From contig NZ_CP070499.1 in the NCBI RefSeq assembly GCF_016925615.1, forward strand, positions 3,596,001 to 3,660,000: 64,000 nt of DNA. The letters run 5' to 3'. Under the pieces are notes generated by a model. That model was not told where the DNA came from and searched no databases. It worked only from the letters and a program-made list of their open reading frames with translations. Both the position numbers and the translations under genes were made by a program. Of the stretch, positions 55,454-64,000 are shown one piece after another (within the stretch, counting starts at the first letter, position 1; every line of letters begins with the position of its first letter). The stretch is from Natronosporangium hydrolyticum (GTDB taxonomy: Bacteria; Actinomycetota; Actinomycetes; Mycobacteriales; Micromonosporaceae).

Positions 55454-55473
55454 TTGGCAATGATTGTCGTTAA
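55454..55473 (+). promoter_or_regulatory. Zur-like box upstream of znuA
   Basis: TTGGCAATGATTGTCGTTAA overlaps the region before the znuA start. Reading the other strand gives AACGACAATCATTGCC, close to the actinobacterial Zur palindrome (TGANAATCATTNTCA type). The zur-type gene is in the same cluster, so zinc repression is likely. Confidence 0.72.
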
Positions 55474-55490
55474 CCGGCAGGGTGGTCCTC

Positions 55491-56585
55491 ATGCTGAGAC
55501 GATCCCTGGCCTACGCCAGCACCGGGCTACTGCTGGGCGCCGCGACCGCCTGTGCCGCCGACGCCGAGGAAGGCAGTGACGAAGCTGCGGTGGACGTGGT
55601 GGCGGCCTTCTACCCACTGGAGTTCGTCGCTGACCGGGTCGGCGGCGAACGGGTCTCGGTGACCGGGCTGGCTCCGCCCGGCGTCGAGGCGCACGACCTG
55701 GAGCTGACACCGTCCCAGGTCGCCGAGATCAGCCAGTCCGACCTGGTGGTCTTCCTCACCGACTTCCAGCCGGCGGTCGACGCTGCGGTGGCCGAGCACG
55801 CCGACGACCGCGGCTTCGACGTCGCCGAGGTGGTGCCGCTGCTGGACAATCCGGACGGCCACGACCACGACCACGGACACAGCCACGATGACGAGGATGC
55901 CCGCGAAGACGACCACGATCATGACCATGATCACGACCATGATGATGATCATGACCACGATGACGACGACCACGGGCACGACGACGACCACGGCCACGAG
56001 GACGACGAAGACGGGCACGAGGAGGACGACGAGCACGGCGACGACGACCACGGACATGACCACGGCGACCAGGACCCGCACGTGTGGCAGGACCCGGACC
56101 GGCTAGCCACCATCGCCGACGAACTCGCCGTGGAGCTGGGCGCACTCGACGCCGACTACGCCGACGAGTACGCCGCCAACGCCGCAGCGCTGCGGGAGGA
56201 GCTGGACACGCTCGACCAGGAGTACGCCGACGGGTTGGCCCAGTGCGAACGGCGTGAGATCGTGGTCAGCCACGCCGCCTTCGGCTACCTGTCGGACCGG
56301 TATGATCTCCGGCAGATCGCCATCAGCGGGCTCTCTCCCGAGGACGAGCCCAGCCCGCAACGGCTCGCGGAGGTCATCCGGGAGGCGGAGGCGCACGGTG
56401 CCACCACCATCTTCTTCGAGGTGCTGGTGAGCCCGGCGGTAGCGGAGGTGATCGCCACCGAGGTCGGTGCCGAGACCGCGGTGCTGGACCCGATCGAAGG
56501 GCTCGCGCCCGGCAGCGAGGAGGATTACTTTTCCCTTATGCGCGCCAACCTCGACACACTCCGGGGAGCACTGGACTGCACGTGA
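55491..56585 (+). CDS. znuA: zinc ABC transporter substrate-binding lipoprotein
   Basis: Cluster A-I metal-binding protein of 364 residues. MLRRSLAYASTGLLLGAATAC gives a signal and lipobox. Metal ligands are the His in GVEAHDLELTPSQ and the C-terminal His/Asp/Glu set (VVSHAAFGYLSDRY, IFFEVLVSPAVAEVI). The His/Asp-rich loop from about residue 122 to 197 (GHDHDHGHSHDDEDAREDDH and on) is extremely long, about 75 residues, and would act as a zinc sponge or delivery loop. The Zur-like box lies upstream. It overlaps znuC by four bases (GTGA). Confidence 0.95.
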   Translation: MLRRSLAYASTGLLLGAATACAADAEEGSDEAAVDVVAAFYPLEFVADRVGGERVSVTGLAPPGVEAHDLELTPSQVAEISQSDLVVFLTDFQPAVDAAVAEHADDRGFDVAEVVPLLDNPDGHDHDHGHSHDDEDAREDDHDHDHDHDHDDDHDHDDDDHGHDDDHGHEDDEDGHEEDDEHGDDDHGHDHGDQDPHVWQDPDRLATIADELAVELGALDADYADEYAANAAALREELDTLDQEYADGLAQCERREIVVSHAAFGYLSDRYDLRQIAISGLSPEDEPSPQRLAEVIREAEAHGATTIFFEVLVSPAVAEVIATEVGAETAVLDPIEGLAPGSEEDYFSLMRANLDTLRGALDCT

Positions 56586-57373
56586 GCACCCCGGTCCTGG
56601 AACTCGCGCACGGGGTGGTCGGCTACCACGGCCGCCCCGTGCTGCCGGGCGTCTCCCTGCGGGTCAACGCCGGTGAGGTGGTGGCGATCCTGGGCGCCAA
56701 CGGCTCCGGCAAGTCCACCCTGATCAAGGCGGCGCTGGGCCTGCTGCCCCTGACCGCCGGCTCAGCCCGGCTCTTCGACACCCCGCTGGGGCGGTTCCGG
56801 CAGCGCTACCGGCTCGGCTACGTGCCGCAGCGCGCCGGGGCCGGCAGCGGCGTGCCGGCCACCGTCACCGAGTTGGTCAGCGCGGGCCGGCTGCCGCGCC
56901 GCCGGCTGCCGTGGCCGCGCTGGTCGGCCGACCGGGCGGCGGTGACGCACGCGATCGCCGTGGTCGGGCTGACCGAGAAGCGGCGGGAGCCGGTGGGCAC
57001 GCTCTCCGGCGGCCAGCAGCAGCGCGCCCTGATCGCCCGGGCCCTGGCCTGCGAACCAGAGCTGCTGGTGCTCGACGAACCGACCGCCGGCGTGGACGCG
57101 GCCAGCCAGGTCGCCTTCGCCGGCGCGCTGCGGCACTTCGTCGACGCCGGCGGGACGGTGGTGCTGGTCGCCCACGAGCTGGGCCCACTAGCGCCGCTGA
57201 TCACCCGGACCGTGGTGTTGCACGAGGGTCGGGTGGTGCAGGACACCGCCGGGGCGGCCGTCGCTACCGACTCGACCACCGCCTCGGACCCCGGCACGGG
57301 CCACCACGACGAGCCGCCGGCGCCCTCCCCGGTCGGGTGGCAGCCCTCGCTCATCCAGGAGCTGCCCCGGTGA
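56582..57373 (+). CDS. znuC: zinc ABC transporter ATP-binding protein
   Basis: ATPase subunit of 263 residues. Walker A ILGANGSGKSTLIKAALG, signature TLSGGQQQRALIARALA and Walker B LLVLDEPTAGVDAAS are intact; the H-loop VLVAHELGPL follows. GTG starts overlap the znuA and znuB stops (GTGA at both ends). The C-terminal 35 residues are Ser/Pro/Thr-rich and probably disordered. Confidence 0.94.
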   Translation: MSTPVLELAHGVVGYHGRPVLPGVSLRVNAGEVVAILGANGSGKSTLIKAALGLLPLTAGSARLFDTPLGRFRQRYRLGYVPQRAGAGSGVPATVTELVSAGRLPRRRLPWPRWSADRAAVTHAIAVVGLTEKRREPVGTLSGGQQQRALIARALACEPELLVLDEPTAGVDAASQVAFAGALRHFVDAGGTVVLVAHELGPLAPLITRTVVLHEGRVVQDTAGAAVATDSTTASDPGTGHHDEPPAPSPVGWQPSLIQELPR

Positions 57374-58245
57374 GCATCTTCTCGCTGCCGTTCATGCAGT
57401 ACGCCCTGATCGGCGCGCTGATCACCGGGCTGGTCGCGCCGGCGCTCGGCACCTACCTGGTGCAGCGCCGGCTGGCATTGATCGGCGACGGGATCGGCCA
57501 CGTCGCGTTGACCGGTGTCGCGGTCGGGCTGCTGTTGGCGCAGTCCCCGGTGATCACCGCCATGGTGGTGGCCGCCGCCGGCGCGATCGCCATCGAGCTG
57601 GTCCGCGAGCGCGGAAAGACCTCCGGCGATGTGGCGCTAGCGGTCCTGTTCTACGGCGGCATCGCCGGCGGTGTGTTCCTGGTCAACCTCTCGGCCAGCC
57701 ACACCAACGCCAACCTGATGGCGTACCTGTTCGGTTCACCGCTCACCACCTCCCCTGCCGACCTGCGGATTATGGCGATACTCGGCGGCGCGGTGCTGCT
57801 GGTGACGCTGGGGCTGCGGCCGTGGCTGTTCGCGATCTGCCACGACGAGGAGCACGCCCGGGTCAGCGGGTTGCCGGTGCGGGCACTGAACCTGCTGCTG
57901 GCGGTGACCACCGCGGTGACGATCACGGTGGCGATGCGGGCGGTCGGGCTGCTGCTGGTCAGCGCCCTGATGGTGGTCCCGGTGGCGACCGCGCAGCTGG
58001 TCGCCCGCGGTTTCCGGGCCACCCAGCTGTTGGCGATGGCGATCGGAGTGGCCGCCGCGGCGGCCGGCATCTGGTTCGCCGGGGTCTACGACACCGCGCC
58101 CGGCGCCACCATCGTGCTGCTGGCGATCGCCGGGTTCGCGGTCGTCACCGTGGTCACGGCCGGGTGGCGGTGGCTCCGCCGGGGGCGCGACCGGCGACCC
58201 GGTGAGCCGGTAGTGCCGCCGCCCGAGGTAACGTTGGCCCGCTAG
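57370..58245 (+). CDS. znuB: zinc ABC transporter permease
   Basis: Membrane permease of 291 residues with eight to nine segments. MQYALIGALITGLVAPALGT and LIGDGIGHVALTGVAVGLLL are typical of ZnuB/AbcG-type permeases of the ABC-3 family, as is VRALNLLLAVTTAVTITVAM. GTG at 57370 overlaps the ATPase stop. The 60 C-terminal residues are basic and end in a proline-rich tail. Confidence 0.94.
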   Translation: MSIFSLPFMQYALIGALITGLVAPALGTYLVQRRLALIGDGIGHVALTGVAVGLLLAQSPVITAMVVAAAGAIAIELVRERGKTSGDVALAVLFYGGIAGGVFLVNLSASHTNANLMAYLFGSPLTTSPADLRIMAILGGAVLLVTLGLRPWLFAICHDEEHARVSGLPVRALNLLLAVTTAVTITVAMRAVGLLLVSALMVVPVATAQLVARGFRATQLLAMAIGVAAAAAGIWFAGVYDTAPGATIVLLAIAGFAVVTVVTAGWRWLRRGRDRRPGEPVVPPPEVTLAR

Positions 58246-58261
58246 AGGCTACGGTTAGGAC

Positions 58262-58600
58262 GTGGGCGGAAACGAAGCGTACGAGGCGGCCGGTGAACTT
58301 CTGCGTGCGCTCGCCGCACCGATCCGAATCGCCATCGTCACCGAGTTGGCCGACGGCCAACGCTGTGTGCACGAGCTGGTCGACGCACTCGGGGTGGCGC
58401 AGCCGTTGGTGAGCCAACACCTGCGGGTGCTCCGGGGGGCCGGGGTGGTCAAAGGCGCCCGCCGCGGGCGGGAGATCGCGTACACACTGGTCGACGAGCA
58501 CATCGCCCACATCGTCGCCGACGCCATCAGCCACGCTGGTGAGCAACGTCCCGGCGAGGTCCCCACTGTCGAGATGGCAAGGGAGGTTAGGGCGCCATGA
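58262..58600 (+). CDS. ArsR/SmtB-type winged-helix regulator in the zinc locus
   Basis: Regulator of 112 residues: LLRALAAPIRIAIVTELADG then CVHELVDALGVAQPLVSQHLRVLRGAGVVKGARRG is the ArsR helix-turn-helix. Metal ligands could be the Cys/His around the HTH (RCVHEL, QHLRVL, DEHIAHIVADAISHA). GTG start 58262; its stop overlaps the Fur/Zur ATG (ATGA at 58597). A metal-sensing repressor paired with Zur in one operon. Confidence 0.9.
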   Translation: MGGNEAYEAAGELLRALAAPIRIAIVTELADGQRCVHELVDALGVAQPLVSQHLRVLRGAGVVKGARRGREIAYTLVDEHIAHIVADAISHAGEQRPGEVPTVEMAREVRAP

Positions 58601-59001
58601 CGGCGACCACCGACACCCCAGGCGTACGCCACACCCGCCAGCGCGCTGCGGTCAGCACTCTGCTCAACGAGGTCGAGGGTTTCCACTCCGCTCAGGAGCT
58701 GCACGCGATGCTGCGAGAACGGGGCGAGCGGGTAGGCCTGACCACCGTCTACCGCACCCTGCAGGGGTTGGCTGACGGCGGCGAGGTGGACGTCATGCGC
58801 CCGCCCGGCGGTGAGCACCTCTACCGCCGGTGCAGCGAGGGCCATCACCACCATCTGGTGTGCCGCGCCTGCGGCCGTACCGTCGAGGTCGAAGGGCCCG
58901 CGGTCGAGACCTGGGCGAGCAAGGTCGCGGCGAGCAACGGGTTCACCGAGGTGAGCCACACACTGGAGATCTTCGGCACCTGCCCGGCCTGCGCCGGCTA
59001 G
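58597..59001 (+). CDS. zur: Fur-family regulator, Zur-type
   Basis: Metalloregulator of 134 residues. The winged helix (HTRQRAAVSTLLNEVEGFHS, VGLTTVYRTLQGLADGGEVD) is followed by a dimerisation domain with YRRCSEGHHHHLVCRACGRT and GTCPACAG, giving two CxxC zinc structural motifs and His ligands. Its position at the end of the znu operon and the Zur-like box upstream indicate zinc control; Fur or Mur types are less likely. Confidence 0.92.
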   Translation: MTATTDTPGVRHTRQRAAVSTLLNEVEGFHSAQELHAMLRERGERVGLTTVYRTLQGLADGGEVDVMRPPGGEHLYRRCSEGHHHHLVCRACGRTVEVEGPAVETWASKVAASNGFTEVSHTLEIFGTCPACAG

Positions 59002-59039: not shown

Positions 59040-59176
59040 GGCGCACACCTGGCGAGACGTGATCATCTTCCCCGCCGCAGCCTAGGGTGGTGCTGCGGGA
59101 GTGTTTGCTCTGCGTACGTAACGCCATCGGCCGGGCGGTCGGGCTGCAAGATCGGCGGGCAGATCGTCTCACCCGA

Positions 59177-59591
59177 CTTGGTGGGTCGAGTGGCGCCTGG
59201 TTTGCCAATATGAACCTGGTTTGTCGCCGTAGTGGATCACCACTCAACCGACCAAGCGGCCGACGGTGTGACAGCCGGCGACAGGGAGGGGCCCCTTCCT
59301 GATCGCCGCTTGATGACCTTGAGCGTAGCTGCCGAGGACCCGCGCCAAGCCGCTGCGCCAAAGCCGCTGCGCCCAGAGCCTACGAGAGCTGCCGGCACAG
59401 ACGGAGCAGCGGCGAGGGCGCCACGGTAGGAAGGCGCCCGGCGCCGCCTGCGGGTCGCCGCGTGACCTAGCCCTCCTGAGCTAGCCCACCTGAGCTAGCC
59501 CGGCGAGCTGCCTTGGTGGGTTGAGTGGTGATCCACTAAGGCGACAAACCAGGTTCATACTGGCAAACCAGGCGCCACCCAACCCACCAAG
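59177..59591. mobile_element. MITE-like element with 80-bp inverted ends, no protein
   Basis: Bases 59177-59256 and 59512-59591 are inverted copies, 75 of 80 matched. Each begins CTTGGTGGGT and ends ACCAAG, so each 80-mer is itself flanked by short inverted repeats of about 17 bases. The 255-bp interior has no ORF with recognised similarity, but has small internal duplications (CCTGAGCTAGCCC and GCCGCTGCGCC twice each). CCGA on both outer sides may be a 4-bp target duplication. No transposase is seen in the window. Between it and the gene at 59778, about 185 bases show nothing recognisable. Confidence 0.72.
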
Positions 59592-59777
59592 CCGAGCACT
59601 GTGACTAGTCCACACCGAACTCTGCCACGAAGTATGTGCAAATATTGCTGTTCCCGCCGCAACAACTGCTCAAGCTTCGGCGGCGCGGTCAGGCAAGCGC
59701 TCCTGCGGCACCACCTGACCTGCGGGGACGCATGATGGTCAGGCGCGTTGGACCGGCGGAGAGCCCCGCGGAGCTGG

Positions 59778-61118
59778 TCAGCCAGGTCGGGAGCTGAGCG
59801 GCTCGGCGGAGCCCGCGGTGGGCACCAGATTCACCGCGGCGGCCGCCTCCCGGAACGCGCGCACCGCGCGGGCGCTGTCACCGGCCTGGTCCAGCAGGTT
59901 TCCGAGCTCGACCCAGGCCCGGGCGGCCTGCCGGGAGGCGCCCAGTTGCCGGAGCGCCCCGGCGGCCCGGTCGAAGCCGGTCACCGCTCGCTCCCACTCG
60001 CCAGCGGCGGCCAGCGCGGCGGCGAGCACCGTATCGGCGCGGGCGCGCTCCAGGGCAGCCTCCGGGCCCAACTCGGCCAACGCCCGATCGGCCAGCTCCG
60101 AGGCGGCCTGCGGCTCGCCCTTCAGCAGGTGGGCGCGGGCCAGTTCGGTGAGCAGGTAACCCCGGTCGTAGCCGTGGCCCACCTGATGGAGCAGGTGCAG
60201 GCCTTCTTCCAGCAGCTGTTGGGCTTCGTCCACCCGGGGCGGTTCCTGTCGCAGTAGCAGCAGCCCGTACTGGCTGAGCAGCCGGCCGACCTGCCGCTGC
60301 TGGCCGCTGCGCCGAAAGTAGGTGAGCGCCTCCTCGGCCAGCTCCAACGCTTCCCGATGCCGTCCGTCCTCACTGGCCAAGTGGCTTGCGTTCCAGAGCA
60401 CCGTCGCCCGCGCCGGTGGTGATTGGAGCTCTTCGGCGCGGCGCAGGCCTTCCCGGAGCAGCCGCTCGGCCTGGGTGACCTCCCCGAGTTCGAAGTGGGC
60501 GGCGGCGACCGTCGCCAGCAACCGGATCGCCGTCTCCGACTGCCAGGCGTCGAGCCGGTCGAGTTCACGCATCGCCCCGGTGCCCACCTCCACCACCCGG
60601 GAGAGCTCCCCCAGCTCATACAGGCACCGGCACCATCGGATGACCACGCTCAACGACGAGAGGTAACGGGGCGACCGGATCGCCTCCTGCACCAACGCCT
60701 CATAGGCGGTGGCGGCTTCGCGTAGCCGACCCTGGGCCGCCAGCGCCTGGGCGATCCCCGTCCGGGCCTCGACCTGCACCAGGGGCTCCACTTCGGCCGC
60801 GGCGAGGACGCTCTCGAACAGCGCGTGCGCCTCGGCGACCTTGCCGGCCTCCAGCGCGAGCTGGCCAAACTTGAGGGTGAGCGCGGCCGGCCGGGCAACC
60901 TCACCGGCAGCCCCGGCCCACAGCTCTTCCGGGGCGCAGCCAAGCGCTGCGGCGAGGCTGCGCACCGTCTCCGGGGTGGGGGTGCGGCGGCCCGCTTCGA
61001 GCAGCGAGACGTAGCTGACCGACAGCGCGTCGCCGGCCAGCTCCCGCTGGGTCAGACCACGCGCCCGCCGCCAACCTCGAAGCCGGCTAGCAAACTCATG
61101 TTGACTCGGTTGACTCAT
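59778..61118 (-). CDS. XRE-family regulator with TPR domain (RRNPP-like)
   Basis: Regulator of 446 residues. Residues 8-65 form an XRE helix-turn-helix (RLRGWRRARGLTQRELAGDA, VSYVSLLEAGRRTPTPETVR). Residues about 75 to 430 are continuous TPR-like helices (EAHALFESVLAAAEVEPLVQ, EAATAYEALVQEAIRSPRYL, AAAHFELGEVTQAERLLREG, and others). This layout is that of RRNPP-type peptide-sensing regulators in Firmicutes and related TPR regulators in actinomycetes. Its start overlaps two GTTGACT half-sites. It diverges from a gene for a small signal-peptide-like peptide 65 bases away. Confidence 0.88.
   Translation of the reverse strand: MSQPSQHEFASRLRGWRRARGLTQRELAGDALSVSYVSLLEAGRRTPTPETVRSLAAALGCAPEELWAGAAGEVARPAALTLKFGQLALEAGKVAEAHALFESVLAAAEVEPLVQVEARTGIAQALAAQGRLREAATAYEALVQEAIRSPRYLSSLSVVIRWCRCLYELGELSRVVEVGTGAMRELDRLDAWQSETAIRLLATVAAAHFELGEVTQAERLLREGLRRAEELQSPPARATVLWNASHLASEDGRHREALELAEEALTYFRRSGQQRQVGRLLSQYGLLLLRQEPPRVDEAQQLLEEGLHLLHQVGHGYDRGYLLTELARAHLLKGEPQAASELADRALAELGPEAALERARADTVLAAALAAAGEWERAVTGFDRAAGALRQLGASRQAARAWVELGNLLDQAGDSARAVRAFREAAAAVNLVPTAGSAEPLSSRPG
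61100..61115. promoter_or_regulatory. two GTTGACT half-sites overlapping XRE-TPR start codon
   Basis: GTTGACT occurs at 61100-61106 and 61109-61115, a 9-base period, next to the ATG (61118) of the minus-strand regulator. The same arm forms the palindrome at 61406-61421. Likely autoregulatory sites, although they also encode residues 1-7 (MSQPSQ). Confidence 0.5.
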
Positions 61119-61183
61119 AGTAATCCCCCGCTCTACAATCTACACTAGAATACCCACGCCGATCTATGCAAGGGGAGACAATG

Positions 61184-61336
61184 ATGAAATTCTCGTCCCT
61201 GACCGCCGCCGCTCTGCTCACCCTCAGCTTGGCGATCGCGCCGGTCATTGCTGGCGGCGTTGCTATTTCAGCCGCAACTCCCGGTTTCGGTGCGGAGAAT
61301 TTATCAATGGGCGGAGCCACCTGCTGCGTAGATTAG
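61184..61336 (+). CDS. small secreted peptide precursor, unannotated (50 residues)
   Basis: A short ORF with AGGGGAG six bases before ATG 61184. The product has one lysine at position 2, a hydrophobic core (LTAAALLTLSLAIAPVIAGG) and small residues before the likely cleavage (AISAA). The predicted secreted tail is about 20 residues ending MGGATCCVD, with two adjacent Cys. It diverges from the XRE-TPR gene and faces the SARP gene. It may be a signalling peptide, or alternatively a RiPP precursor given the LanM-like gene nearby. A TAGAAT box lies about 33 bases upstream. Confidence 0.78.
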   Translation: MKFSSLTAAALLTLSLAIAPVIAGGVAISAATPGFGAENLSMGGATCCVD

Positions 61337-61405
61337 TCGACACGCGACAATCGCCCGATTCACACACTCCTGTGACCACTCGTAGCGAGTTCTGTTGACG
61401 GAGTT

Positions 61406-61421
61406 AGTCAACTAGTTGACT
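61406..61421. promoter_or_regulatory. 16-bp palindrome upstream of SARP gene
   Basis: AGTCAACTAGTTGACT is a perfect palindrome 47 bases before the SARP start, with another GTTGAC at 61394-61399. Its arms equal the half-sites at the XRE-TPR start, suggesting that one regulator binds both. Confidence 0.72.
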
Positions 61422-61468
61422 GTTCCGGCACGACGCTCCGAGCTGCGTCCAACCCCGACAGGAGGATC

Positions 61469-62317
61469 ATGCCCACCGTCGGCATCACCGTGCTCGGGCC
61501 GGTTCAGGCCTGGCGTGACGACCAGGAACTCCCCCTTGGACCGCCGCAGCAACGCAGCGTCCTGGCGCTACTGGCCGTGGTCGGCGGCCAGCCGATCACC
61601 ACCCGCGAGATCGTCGAAGCGCTGTGGGATTCCCAGCCGCCGCGCAGCGCCGTCAACGTCGTCCAGACATATCTGAAACGGCTCCGCCGGATCCTGGAGC
61701 CCGAGCGACCCCCACGCAGCGCCAGCACTCTGCTCCCGGCCCGCCACGGTGGTTACGCGCTGCGGGCGGAGCCCGAGGCGGTCGACCTGTGGCGCTTCCG
61801 AGGGTTGCTCGGCCGCGCCCGGGAGCTACACCGCATCGGCGACCACCGTCGCGTCACCACACTGCTCGCCGACGCGCTGCGGCAGTGGCACGGCCCGCCC
61901 GGCGCCGACCTGCCGGCGCTCGCCCAGCACCATCGGGTACGCGCGGTCGTCGAGGAGTACGGCGCGGTGGTGCGCTGGTACGCCCAGGCCAGCCTGGTCA
62001 CCGGCGCCCCCGGGGAAGCGGTGCCGGTGGTCGCCCAAGCCGCCACCGGACGGCCCTTCGACGAACCGCTCCACGCCCAGCTGATCCGGCTCTACCACGC
62101 CGCTGGCCAACGCAGTGAGGCGGTTCGGGTGTTTCAGAGCTGCCGCCGCCGACTGCATGACGAACTCGGACTCGACCCCGGCCCGGAGCTCACCGGCGCC
62201 TTCGGTGAACTCCTCCGTGACCAGCGCCCCTGGTCGCGCGCTGTGCCCCCGGAGCTCAAGCCGGCGCCAACGACTGTCCGAACCGGAAGACCTCCGCTGG
62301 GTCGTACCGGGCCTTGA
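61469..62317 (+). CDS. SARP-family transcriptional activator
   Basis: Activator of 282 residues. The OmpR-type winged helix (QQRSVLALLAVVGGQPITTR, SAVNVVQTYLKRLRRILEPE) is followed by a BTAD domain (GAVVRWYAQASLVTGAPGEA, LIRLYHAAGQRSEAVRVFQS, LHDELGLDPGPEL). SARPs activate biosynthetic clusters in actinomycetes. AGGAGGATC precedes the ATG. Its 3' end overlaps the convergent oxidase gene by 62 bases. A probable pathway-specific activator of this locus. Confidence 0.93.
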   Translation: MPTVGITVLGPVQAWRDDQELPLGPPQQRSVLALLAVVGGQPITTREIVEALWDSQPPRSAVNVVQTYLKRLRRILEPERPPRSASTLLPARHGGYALRAEPEAVDLWRFRGLLGRARELHRIGDHRRVTTLLADALRQWHGPPGADLPALAQHHRVRAVVEEYGAVVRWYAQASLVTGAPGEAVPVVAQAATGRPFDEPLHAQLIRLYHAAGQRSEAVRVFQSCRRRLHDELGLDPGPELTGAFGELLRDQRPWSRAVPPELKPAPTTVRTGRPPLGRTGP

Positions 62318-63677
62318 CCTGCCGGAGCCGCGGCAGGTTTACACCGAAGTACGCCGACGCCCACTCCGGCAGCTCGGCATCGGGGTAGTTCGGGTAGACC
62401 GCCCCGCTCGCCGCCGGCCGTACCGCCCGCCATGACTGCTGGACCCAATCGGTCGCCGCTTTGCGGGCGACGTCGTCGAGGTGCGGCAGCGCGGTGCCGT
62501 GGTGTCCGATCAGGAACTGAGCCCGGCGGTGGACGAACGCGGTCTCCGCTGGCGCCACCCGGGCGTAGGCGCCGCCCCACGGCACCAGCTCCACCTCCCG
62601 GTACTGCCCCGCGGGCGGCTCCGGGTCGAACGCCGCCAGCAGCGCGTCGATCACCTCGGCCGGCATCGGCGCGTCGAAGAAGTCTGACTTCACCGCCCGC
62701 AGCCAGGGGCGTTGCCCGGCCGGCGGACCCGGCTGGGCGACAGTCGACACCGGCATCCCGGCGTAGGTGTGGCGCCGGGCCGCCACCACCGGGGACAGCT
62801 CGGCCAGCTCCCCCAGCTCGGCCGAGAGATCCACCTCCGCTAGGAACTCCTCCACGAGCGGCCGGGCGTCGTTCGCGCCTCCCACCACCGCTCCGAAGAG
62901 CACCAGCCGCGGGCCGCTGCCGGTCGGGGTCGCCGACTGCAGCACCAGCTCGCCGTTGACCTCCTCGGGTGCGACCGGCGCCCAGTGCTGCCACGCGTCG
63001 ATCACCGCCGCCGCCTGCTCCCACGGCCAGCAGTGGACGAAGGTGCTCACCCGAGGGGCCGGGTGGGTGCGGAGCGTCAACGAGGTGACTGCGCCGAACC
63101 CGGCCCAACCGGCACCGCGTAACGCCCAGAACAGCTCCGGCTCACGGTGTTCGTCCACGGTGACCTGTCGGCCGTCGGCGAGCACCACCTGGGCTGCGAG
63201 CAGCTGGTCGCACCCGAGGCCGAAGTAGCGGCCGAGCATGCCGTAGCCGCCCCCGAGCACCGCACCGCCGACCGCGACCGTCGGGTTCCAGCCGACCGCC
63301 ACCACCCGGCCCACCTCGGCGAGTCGATCGGCCAGCTCCCCGAGCCGTACCCCGGGCCCGACCGTCACGGTCTCCGGGCCGACCTCGATCGACCGCAGCC
63401 CCGCCAGGTCGATCACGAGCCCGTCGCTGGTGCTGAGGTCGGCGAAGCTGTGACCACCACTGCGCAGCGCGAACGGCAACCGTTGGGCGCGGGCGAAGGC
63501 TACCGCTTCGGCGACATCGGCGACGCCCGCGCAGCGGACCACCGCCTGCGGTGTCACCTCACCCAACCCGCACGCGAACGGCTTCCGCAGCCGAGGGAAC
63601 TCCGGTGCGTCCGGCAGCACCACGTCGCCGCGCATCCGCTGCGCCAGTGCAGTTACCGCGGTGGTGCTGATCTCCAT
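62256..63677 (-). CDS. FAD-binding oxidoreductase, berberine-bridge-enzyme type
   Basis: Flavin oxidase of 473 residues. The PCMH-type FAD domain includes PFALRSGGHSFADLSTSDGL with a His for a covalent flavin, TVGPGVRLGELADRLAEVGR and GGAVLGGGYGMLGRYFGLGC (the second Cys is a candidate for bicovalent attachment). The C-terminal BBE motif is PNYPDAELPEWASAYFGVNL. GGAGGATC precedes the ATG. Such enzymes oxidise alcohols or close rings in natural products. It is convergent with the SARP gene and same-strand with the LanM-like gene upstream. Confidence 0.92.
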   Translation of the reverse strand: MEISTTAVTALAQRMRGDVVLPDAPEFPRLRKPFACGLGEVTPQAVVRCAGVADVAEAVAFARAQRLPFALRSGGHSFADLSTSDGLVIDLAGLRSIEVGPETVTVGPGVRLGELADRLAEVGRVVAVGWNPTVAVGGAVLGGGYGMLGRYFGLGCDQLLAAQVVLADGRQVTVDEHREPELFWALRGAGWAGFGAVTSLTLRTHPAPRVSTFVHCWPWEQAAAVIDAWQHWAPVAPEEVNGELVLQSATPTGSGPRLVLFGAVVGGANDARPLVEEFLAEVDLSAELGELAELSPVVAARRHTYAGMPVSTVAQPGPPAGQRPWLRAVKSDFFDAPMPAEVIDALLAAFDPEPPAGQYREVELVPWGGAYARVAPAETAFVHRRAQFLIGHHGTALPHLDDVARKAATDWVQQSWRAVRPAASGAVYPNYPDAELPEWASAYFGVNLPRLRQVKARYDPAEVFRFGQSLAPA

Positions 63678-63703
63678 CGTGATCCTCCAGAGTGCCCGCG
63701 GTC

Positions 63704-64000
63704 TCAGCCGGTGCTGCCGCTGCCCGGGATCGTAGCGGGATCGTCCTGTCTGGAGGGAAGCGGGCCCGCGGGTGGCGGACCAGGGTCGGGCAGCGACACC
63801 GAGGGTAGCTCTGCCTCGGGATGCATCCGCAGCAGCTGGTAGACGATACCGCCCTGGCCCGGCAACAGGCCCGGAGCGAAGACGTCTCTCGCCAACCCGC
63901 TGACGGCGCCGTGCTCGGCCAGACTGCCCAGCAGCGCAGCCAGCACCTCCTCCCGGGCCGGCAATGTCGACCCCACCTTCGCCGCCCACGCGTGTTCAAA
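63704..64000 (-). CDS. C-terminal end of lanthionine synthetase (LanM)-like protein, cut by window
   Basis: The frame is open to base 64000, so the start lies beyond the window. The visible part, about 98 residues, contains FEHAWAAKVGSTLPAREEVL at the edge and APGLLPGQGGIVYQLLRMHP then ELPSVSLPDP. This pattern (xxGLxxGxxGIxYxLLRxxxP) is that of the C-terminal cyclase end of class II lanthipeptide synthetases, though only the last part is seen. The remaining 25 residues are Pro/Ser-rich. Its stop is 27 bases before the BBE gene, so the two may be co-transcribed. Confidence 0.65.
   Translation of the reverse strand, partial: FEHAWAAKVGSTLPAREEVLAALLGSLAEHGAVSGLARDVFAPGLLPGQGGIVYQLLRMHPEAELPSVSLPDPGPPPAGPLPSRQDDPATIPGSGSTG

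Follow-up and report, generated by a model that had tools for sequence, protein, structure and literature searches.

An XRE-TPR regulator gene of Natronosporangium hydrolyticum diverges from a short, signal-peptide-like open reading frame (ORF) with a Cys-Cys pair near its end, and pairs of this kind recur widely among related actinobacterial regulators. We consider it likely that the two genes form an RRNPP-like circuit, in which an exported peptide would be read by a TPR receptor controlling a SARP activator and, probably, a lanthipeptide operon. The pair lies in a 64,000-nucleotide stretch (hereafter, the window) of a genome consisting of a single 5.7-Mb contig. The original prediction described an XRE-TPR gene, a divergent 50-codon ORF with a ribosome site, a signal-peptide-like core and a GGATCCVD tail, and a following SARP gene; coordinates and domain matches confirm this layout (Table 1). 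What was observed is genuine, and it extends further than first described.

Table 1. Features of the candidate peptide circuit and its neighbourhood (window coordinates)
Feature	Position	Strand	Details
XRE-TPR regulator, candidate peptide receptor	59778..61118	-	446 aa; HTH_3 E 6e-12, TPR_12 E 3e-20
TTGACT-CGG-TTGACT direct repeat over the regulator's first codons	61101..61115	+	its second TTGACT provides the -35 of the predicted promoter
Predicted peptide-gene promoter, TTGACT-N18-TACAAT	61110..61139	+	promoter match
Candidate propeptide, 50 codons	61184..61336	+	signal-peptide-like N-terminus, tail GGATCCVD
Perfect palindrome AGTCAACTAGTTGACT, candidate operator	61406..61421	.	47 bp before SARP start
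SARP-type activator	61469..62317	+	282 aa; BTAD E 5e-30, Trans_reg_C E 5e-8
BBE-type FAD-linked oxidase of lanthipeptide operon	62256..63680	-	FAD_binding_4 E 2e-29, BBE E 5e-16
LanM C-terminal end	63704..64000	-	continues past window end; lanA upstream of lanM

The small ORF has in-frame ATG codons at 61166, 61181 and 61184, and its stop codon ends at 61336. The 50-aa form reads MKFSSLTAAALLTLSLAIAPVIAGGVAISAATPGFGAENLSMGGATCCVD and is preceded by the ribosome site AAGGGGAG. As had been stated, the ORF is unannotated: neither it nor the related peptides described below match any Pfam or NCBIfam family. A direct similarity search with the 50-aa peptide gave no detectable homologue (best foreign E 0.03). 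What is conserved is its position, its signal peptide and its CC tail only; the expected conservation of the ORF holds for these features and not for the sequence of the window peptide, which on this comparison is an orphan by sequence and a family member by position. In most family members CC is terminal; here the tail, TCCVD, runs two residues past it. Throughout the family CC is C-terminal or nearly so, which makes the proposed mature form of the last 5-12 residues a plausible prediction. Export is predicted solely from the signal-peptide-like N-terminus, and translation of the window ORF by analogy of position with related ORFs.

Nine orthologues of the regulator (55-64% identity) were identified which, together with the window gene, make ten loci in 9 of the 355 genomes of its family. 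All nine are accompanied by a divergent, signal-peptide-like short ORF with Cys-Cys near its end (one frameshifted), the tails being ..GGPLTCCTFG, ..DFPRCCYPGGN, ..GFPPCCDGR, ..GVWCCWPPK, ..GWPSCCGLPD (twice), ..GWPSCCGVAR and ..GWPSCCGVEY. At locus L011 (approximately 1290-1470) the signal-peptide part and the CC tail are in different frames, reflecting either a broken gene or a sequencing error. None of seven paralogues of 31-36% identity has a CC-peptide. A pattern scan of named genomes recovered two true orthologues only, in Virgisporangium aurantiacum and Hamadaea tsunoensis.

The pairing extends far past close relatives, a strong positive answer to the earlier question of whether the ORF and its C-terminal end are conserved next to XRE-TPR genes. 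A broader search with a regulator profile (E <= 1e-60) produced matches in 66 of 395 genomes of the class and 29 of 138 genera; combined with the earlier loci, these make 113 related loci, many of them mutually related. A few of the profile seeds were already known to carry CC-peptides, although the search scored the regulator alone. When a CC-peptide is defined as a signal-peptide ORF no more than 400 bp away on the divergent strand with CC within its last 8 residues, 51 of the 113 loci have one, compared to 0.10 expected from dinucleotide shuffles (approximately 500-fold enrichment), and 39 of these 51 peptides end exactly in CC-stop. The control counts were zero in 179 kb of unrelated loci and one for the same-strand upstream arrangement. 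A downstream CC-peptide on the convergent strand is found at 13 loci; some loci carry both kinds, and 65 of the 113 have a CC-peptide on one flank or the other. Loci L119, L124, L126 and L137 each have two, one divergent from and one convergent to the same XRE-TPR gene.

CC-peptides are spread over about ten families of organisms, with tails such as ..APDWPVMCC, ..TASPGDFCC, ..QHPPTCC and ..IATSLYCC, and ..TGDAGCC in Nonomuraea gerenzanensis. The arrangement varies in Streptomyces goshikiensis, where a 71-aa gene downstream of the regulator on the same strand ends in ..KDIPLCC and a BTAD regulator lies near the pair. Three distant members of the phylum (L072, L073 and L074) have divergent peptides of 28-30 aa ending in ..SFPGP, ..SFPWGGT and ..GYPWPK. 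No CC-peptide was found in three further plasmid relatives. Spread by phages is not supported, the one phage match being partial and lacking a CC-peptide. Such pairs of exported-peptide ORF and regulator make good candidates for peptide signalling between cells.

Mapped onto a tree of the 113 regulators, the presence of a CC-peptide requires 13 changes, compared to 36 with shuffled labels; this tree, a quick estimate with long branches, should not be relied on for depth. Loci lacking a peptide mostly fall in coherent paralogue clades. One clade of seven loci inside family f31 has peptides without CC, most with W/P tails (..YGWGWPG, ..SPWQWPI); the divergent peptides of this clade (L105, L107, L112, L117, L118, L122 and L128) keep the signal peptide. 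In four sets of close relatives, dN/dS of the peptide ORFs is 0.30, 0.21, 0.41 and 0.76, and ribosome sites are conserved in all four. In the last set (four sequences), the signal peptide is constrained (0.35), the tail is unconstrained (1.31) and the CC is constant. These ratios indicate purifying selection on the related peptide ORFs and, together with the conserved ribosome sites, support their translation. An argument from receptor co-evolution (an invariant HTH and a variable TPR domain accompanying hypervariable tails) was dropped, as a control set with conserved tails gave the same contrast.

The promoter-like sequence upstream of the peptide gene is the sole match of its kind in 61050-61500 (shuffles mean 0.0), and its -35 and spacing are similar at orthologous loci. 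The TTGACT-CGG-TTGACT repeat is kept in L007, L008 and L021 and partly in L054. In nine loci of this clade, the region around the regulator start and as far as 330 bp upstream has 25 TTGACT/AGTCAA hexamers, compared to 1.1 expected; since the -35 of the peptide promoter is itself a TTGACT, part of this signal is promoter. The same half-sites form the palindrome that precedes the SARP gene; the genome has no second exact match to AGTCAAN4TTGACT. The pattern recurs at orthologous loci and, among the loci scanned for it, was confined to this clade. In genus g34 it is located between the CC-peptide and an 88-aa gene whose product, by eye, resembles a LuxR-type HTH and matches zero Pfam families. 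No such palindrome was found before lanA. The XRE-TPR protein may bind the palindrome as an operator.

The gene beyond the palindrome combines Trans_reg_C and BTAD in one short protein, as in small SARP activators, and 10 of 16 family-f31/Nonomuraea loci have a divergent SARP gene after the peptide. The biosynthetic locus that the original prediction placed under this activator is present, and can be refined to a class II lanthipeptide operon, which the end of the window truncates. Its LanM is 1013 aa long (DUF4135 E 1e-93, LANC_like E 5e-30), the lanA directly upstream encodes an adjacent Cys/Ser/Thr-rich precursor (..NPAGPLFSSSGYAESEITLTGTGYPGLSCGTGCSGSYDPATGMHYFCC), and the FAD oxidase gene, which converges on the SARP gene, follows lanM. 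At L080, from another genus, the orthologous pair adjoins an orthologous lanthipeptide cluster, with a LanM of 54% identity over 774 aligned positions, a homologous LanA (E 4e-13), an FAD oxidase and an ABC transporter; no SARP gene adjoins the pair at this locus. The position of the L080 pair supports, without proving, control of such clusters by the pair.

Several further features of these regions were observed. The lanA precursors at L005 (8742-8970) and L080 (18468-18650) end in CC (..MHYFCC and ..TRYCC), like the exported peptides; this may be coincidence, or the lanthipeptide may feed back on the regulator. A large LuxR-type gene (AAA_16 and GerE; L005 11234-13999), which one further gene separates from the upstream side of the lanthipeptide operon, may encode a second regulator. 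The XRE-TPR locus is bordered immediately upstream by a probable zinc-uptake operon (55464-59001) encoding a metal-binding lipoprotein that has a His-rich stretch, along with ABC subunits and ArsR and Fur regulators. Between the Fur-family and XRE-TPR genes is an 83-nt inverted repeat (59174-59256 and 59512-59594) with arms 93% complementary and 255 nt apart.

The regulator has an N-terminal XRE-type HTH followed by a TPR domain, as indicated by both its Pfam matches and an AlphaFold2 model (pLDDT 87) in which the HTH leads into a TPR superhelix. Solved folds near the model include MalT (Z 30), Rap (26), NprR (24.5) and AimR (21), MalT and eukaryotic TPR proteins matching no less well than RRNPP receptors. 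The modelled superhelix fits an RRNPP receptor; the fold match falls short of proof because TPR folds are common. PlcR was picked up by the regulator profile (E 4e-9) over the HTH and first repeats, where the similarity may be generic to HTH/TPR proteins. The NsdA-family TPR regulators of Streptomyces (NF053720), likewise HTH-TPR proteins and associated with actinobacterial development and antibiotic production, are matched weakly (E 3e-17), the window regulator scoring 63.2 bits against a curated cut-off of 75. The genome has 16 genes for oligopeptide-binding proteins (SBP_bac_5), which could serve peptide uptake.

Among the RRNPP systems of the Bacillota (PlcR-PapR, NprR-NprX, Rgg-SHP, ComR-ComS, AimR-AimP and Rap-Phr), the receptors, except Rap, combine an XRE-type HTH with TPRs, as here. 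The likeness extends to a neighbouring small gene whose product is an exported propeptide with a short, variable tail at its C-terminus, and to regulatory targets next door; in our loci the small gene is conserved with the receptor in position and tail, and export would proceed by the signal-peptide-like N-terminus. In contrast to RRNPP, the pairs described here belong to the Actinomycetota, the peptide is usually divergent and ends in or near Cys-Cys, the regulator is larger (about 430-450 aa), the neighbours are SARP and lanthipeptide genes, and binding and transport are predicted only. "RRNPP-like" is the most likely reading of these sequences, with membership of RRNPP proper not established.

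In the circuit that we propose, the 50-codon ORF would encode a propeptide that is exported via its signal peptide and processed to a short Cys-Cys-containing fragment from its C-terminus. The mature peptide would re-enter through an oligopeptide transporter and bind the divergently encoded XRE-TPR protein at its TPR domain, altering the regulator's action at TTGACT/AGTCAA sites at its own start, in the peptide promoter and in the palindrome that precedes the SARP gene. In turn, the SARP would switch on the convergent lanthipeptide operon (lanA-lanM-FAD oxidase). What the sequences supply directly is the layout, the class-wide coupling of regulator and CC-peptide, selection on related ORFs, the promoter match, the palindrome and the recurrence of SARP and lanthipeptide neighbours; from these we infer export, processing, uptake, binding, the direction of regulation and the SARP target. 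The earlier interpretation as a peptide circuit is partly supported, by the genome-unique palindrome before the SARP gene, the peptide-SARP order that recurs in another family and the conservation of the pair; its further elements (a peptide-driven DNA-binding switch, a link to cell density, and activation rather than relief of repression) are predictions. We favour this circuit because of the divergent CC-peptides at the orthologous and wider loci, their constrained ORFs and conserved ribosome sites, the palindrome, the SARP position, the L080 cluster, the superhelix near Rap, NprR and AimR, the PlcR profile match and the oligopeptide-binding proteins. Counted against it are the fold matches to MalT and eukaryotic TPR proteins, the TCCVD tail, the lack of an adjoining SARP at L080, the part of the TTGACT signal that is -35, and the palindrome not found before lanA.

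The alternative that deserves most attention is that the CC-peptide is an exported output or effector (e.g. a secreted thiol, redox or metal-binding peptide) whose gene is controlled by an XRE-TPR protein sensing some other input, a control that would account for the linkage of the two genes. The overlapping divergent promoters would suit such an arrangement, as would the aptness of a vicinal Cys pair for thiol, redox or metal chemistry; CopC-/CopD-like genes (named by eye) flank family-f31 loci, and zinc-uptake and Fur-type genes are upstream at the window locus. However, the genes neighbouring other pairs have no relation to metals (aminotransferase, EamA-like transporter, sulfatase-like and SARP genes), one clade keeps the pair with W/P tails lacking Cys, and the mature tails are very short with a variable lead-in. 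We regard an output role as unlikely, and a metal-binding role in particular was set low given the unrelated neighbours and the Cys-less tails.

The remaining explanations concern the nature of the small ORF itself. Located near lanM and containing Cys, Ser and Thr towards its C-terminal end, it could be a second lanA, supplying a precursor to the neighbouring LanM instead of a regulatory peptide. This is very unlikely, and was rejected given the separate lanA directly upstream of lanM; related CC-peptides also occur where lanM is absent nearby, and the N-terminus is signal-peptide-like. It is highly improbable that the membrane-type ORF and the XRE protein make up a toxin-antitoxin module or a similar system based on a hydrophobic peptide: small genes are frequent partners of XRE regulators, and the N-terminus is hydrophobic, but conservation lies in the C-terminal tail instead of the hydrophobic part, the regulator carries a long TPR sensor, and SARP neighbours recur. 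That the ORF is a chance reading frame is scarcely credible. The absence of sequence homologues in a direct search would agree with it, whereas for the family it is already contradicted by the positional conservation over shuffles, the conserved ribosome sites and dN/dS below 0.5 in three related sets; the promoter match also speaks against it.

A signal-responsive regulator placed before the SARP activator of a biosynthetic cluster has a precedent in the gamma-butyrolactone receptors (ArpA/ScbR) of Streptomyces. In that system the receptor is of the TetR type and the signal is an enzyme-made small molecule; here, the regulator is an XRE-TPR protein and the candidate signal is a gene-encoded peptide. 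Quorum sensing in actinobacteria is usually described via enzyme-made small molecules (gamma-butyrolactones), and RRNPP-type sensing for the Bacillota (PMC10075063, PMC13220807). No earlier description of such actinobacterial pairs was found in the open-access library searched.

The class-wide XRE-TPR/CC-peptide pairs supply candidate ligands, receptors and a predicted operator, with the lanthipeptide cluster as a read-out in this organism. We lean towards the broader view that Actinomycetota possess widespread, intracellularly sensed peptide pheromones with an ancestral C-terminal Cys-Cys (possibly a vicinal disulfide or modified), whose XRE-TPR receptors would control SARPs and biosynthetic clusters in several lineages. 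If the pairs do signal, it would become possible to test directly whether peptide pheromones are used by actinobacteria, and attempts could be made to induce silent biosynthetic clusters with synthetic tails.
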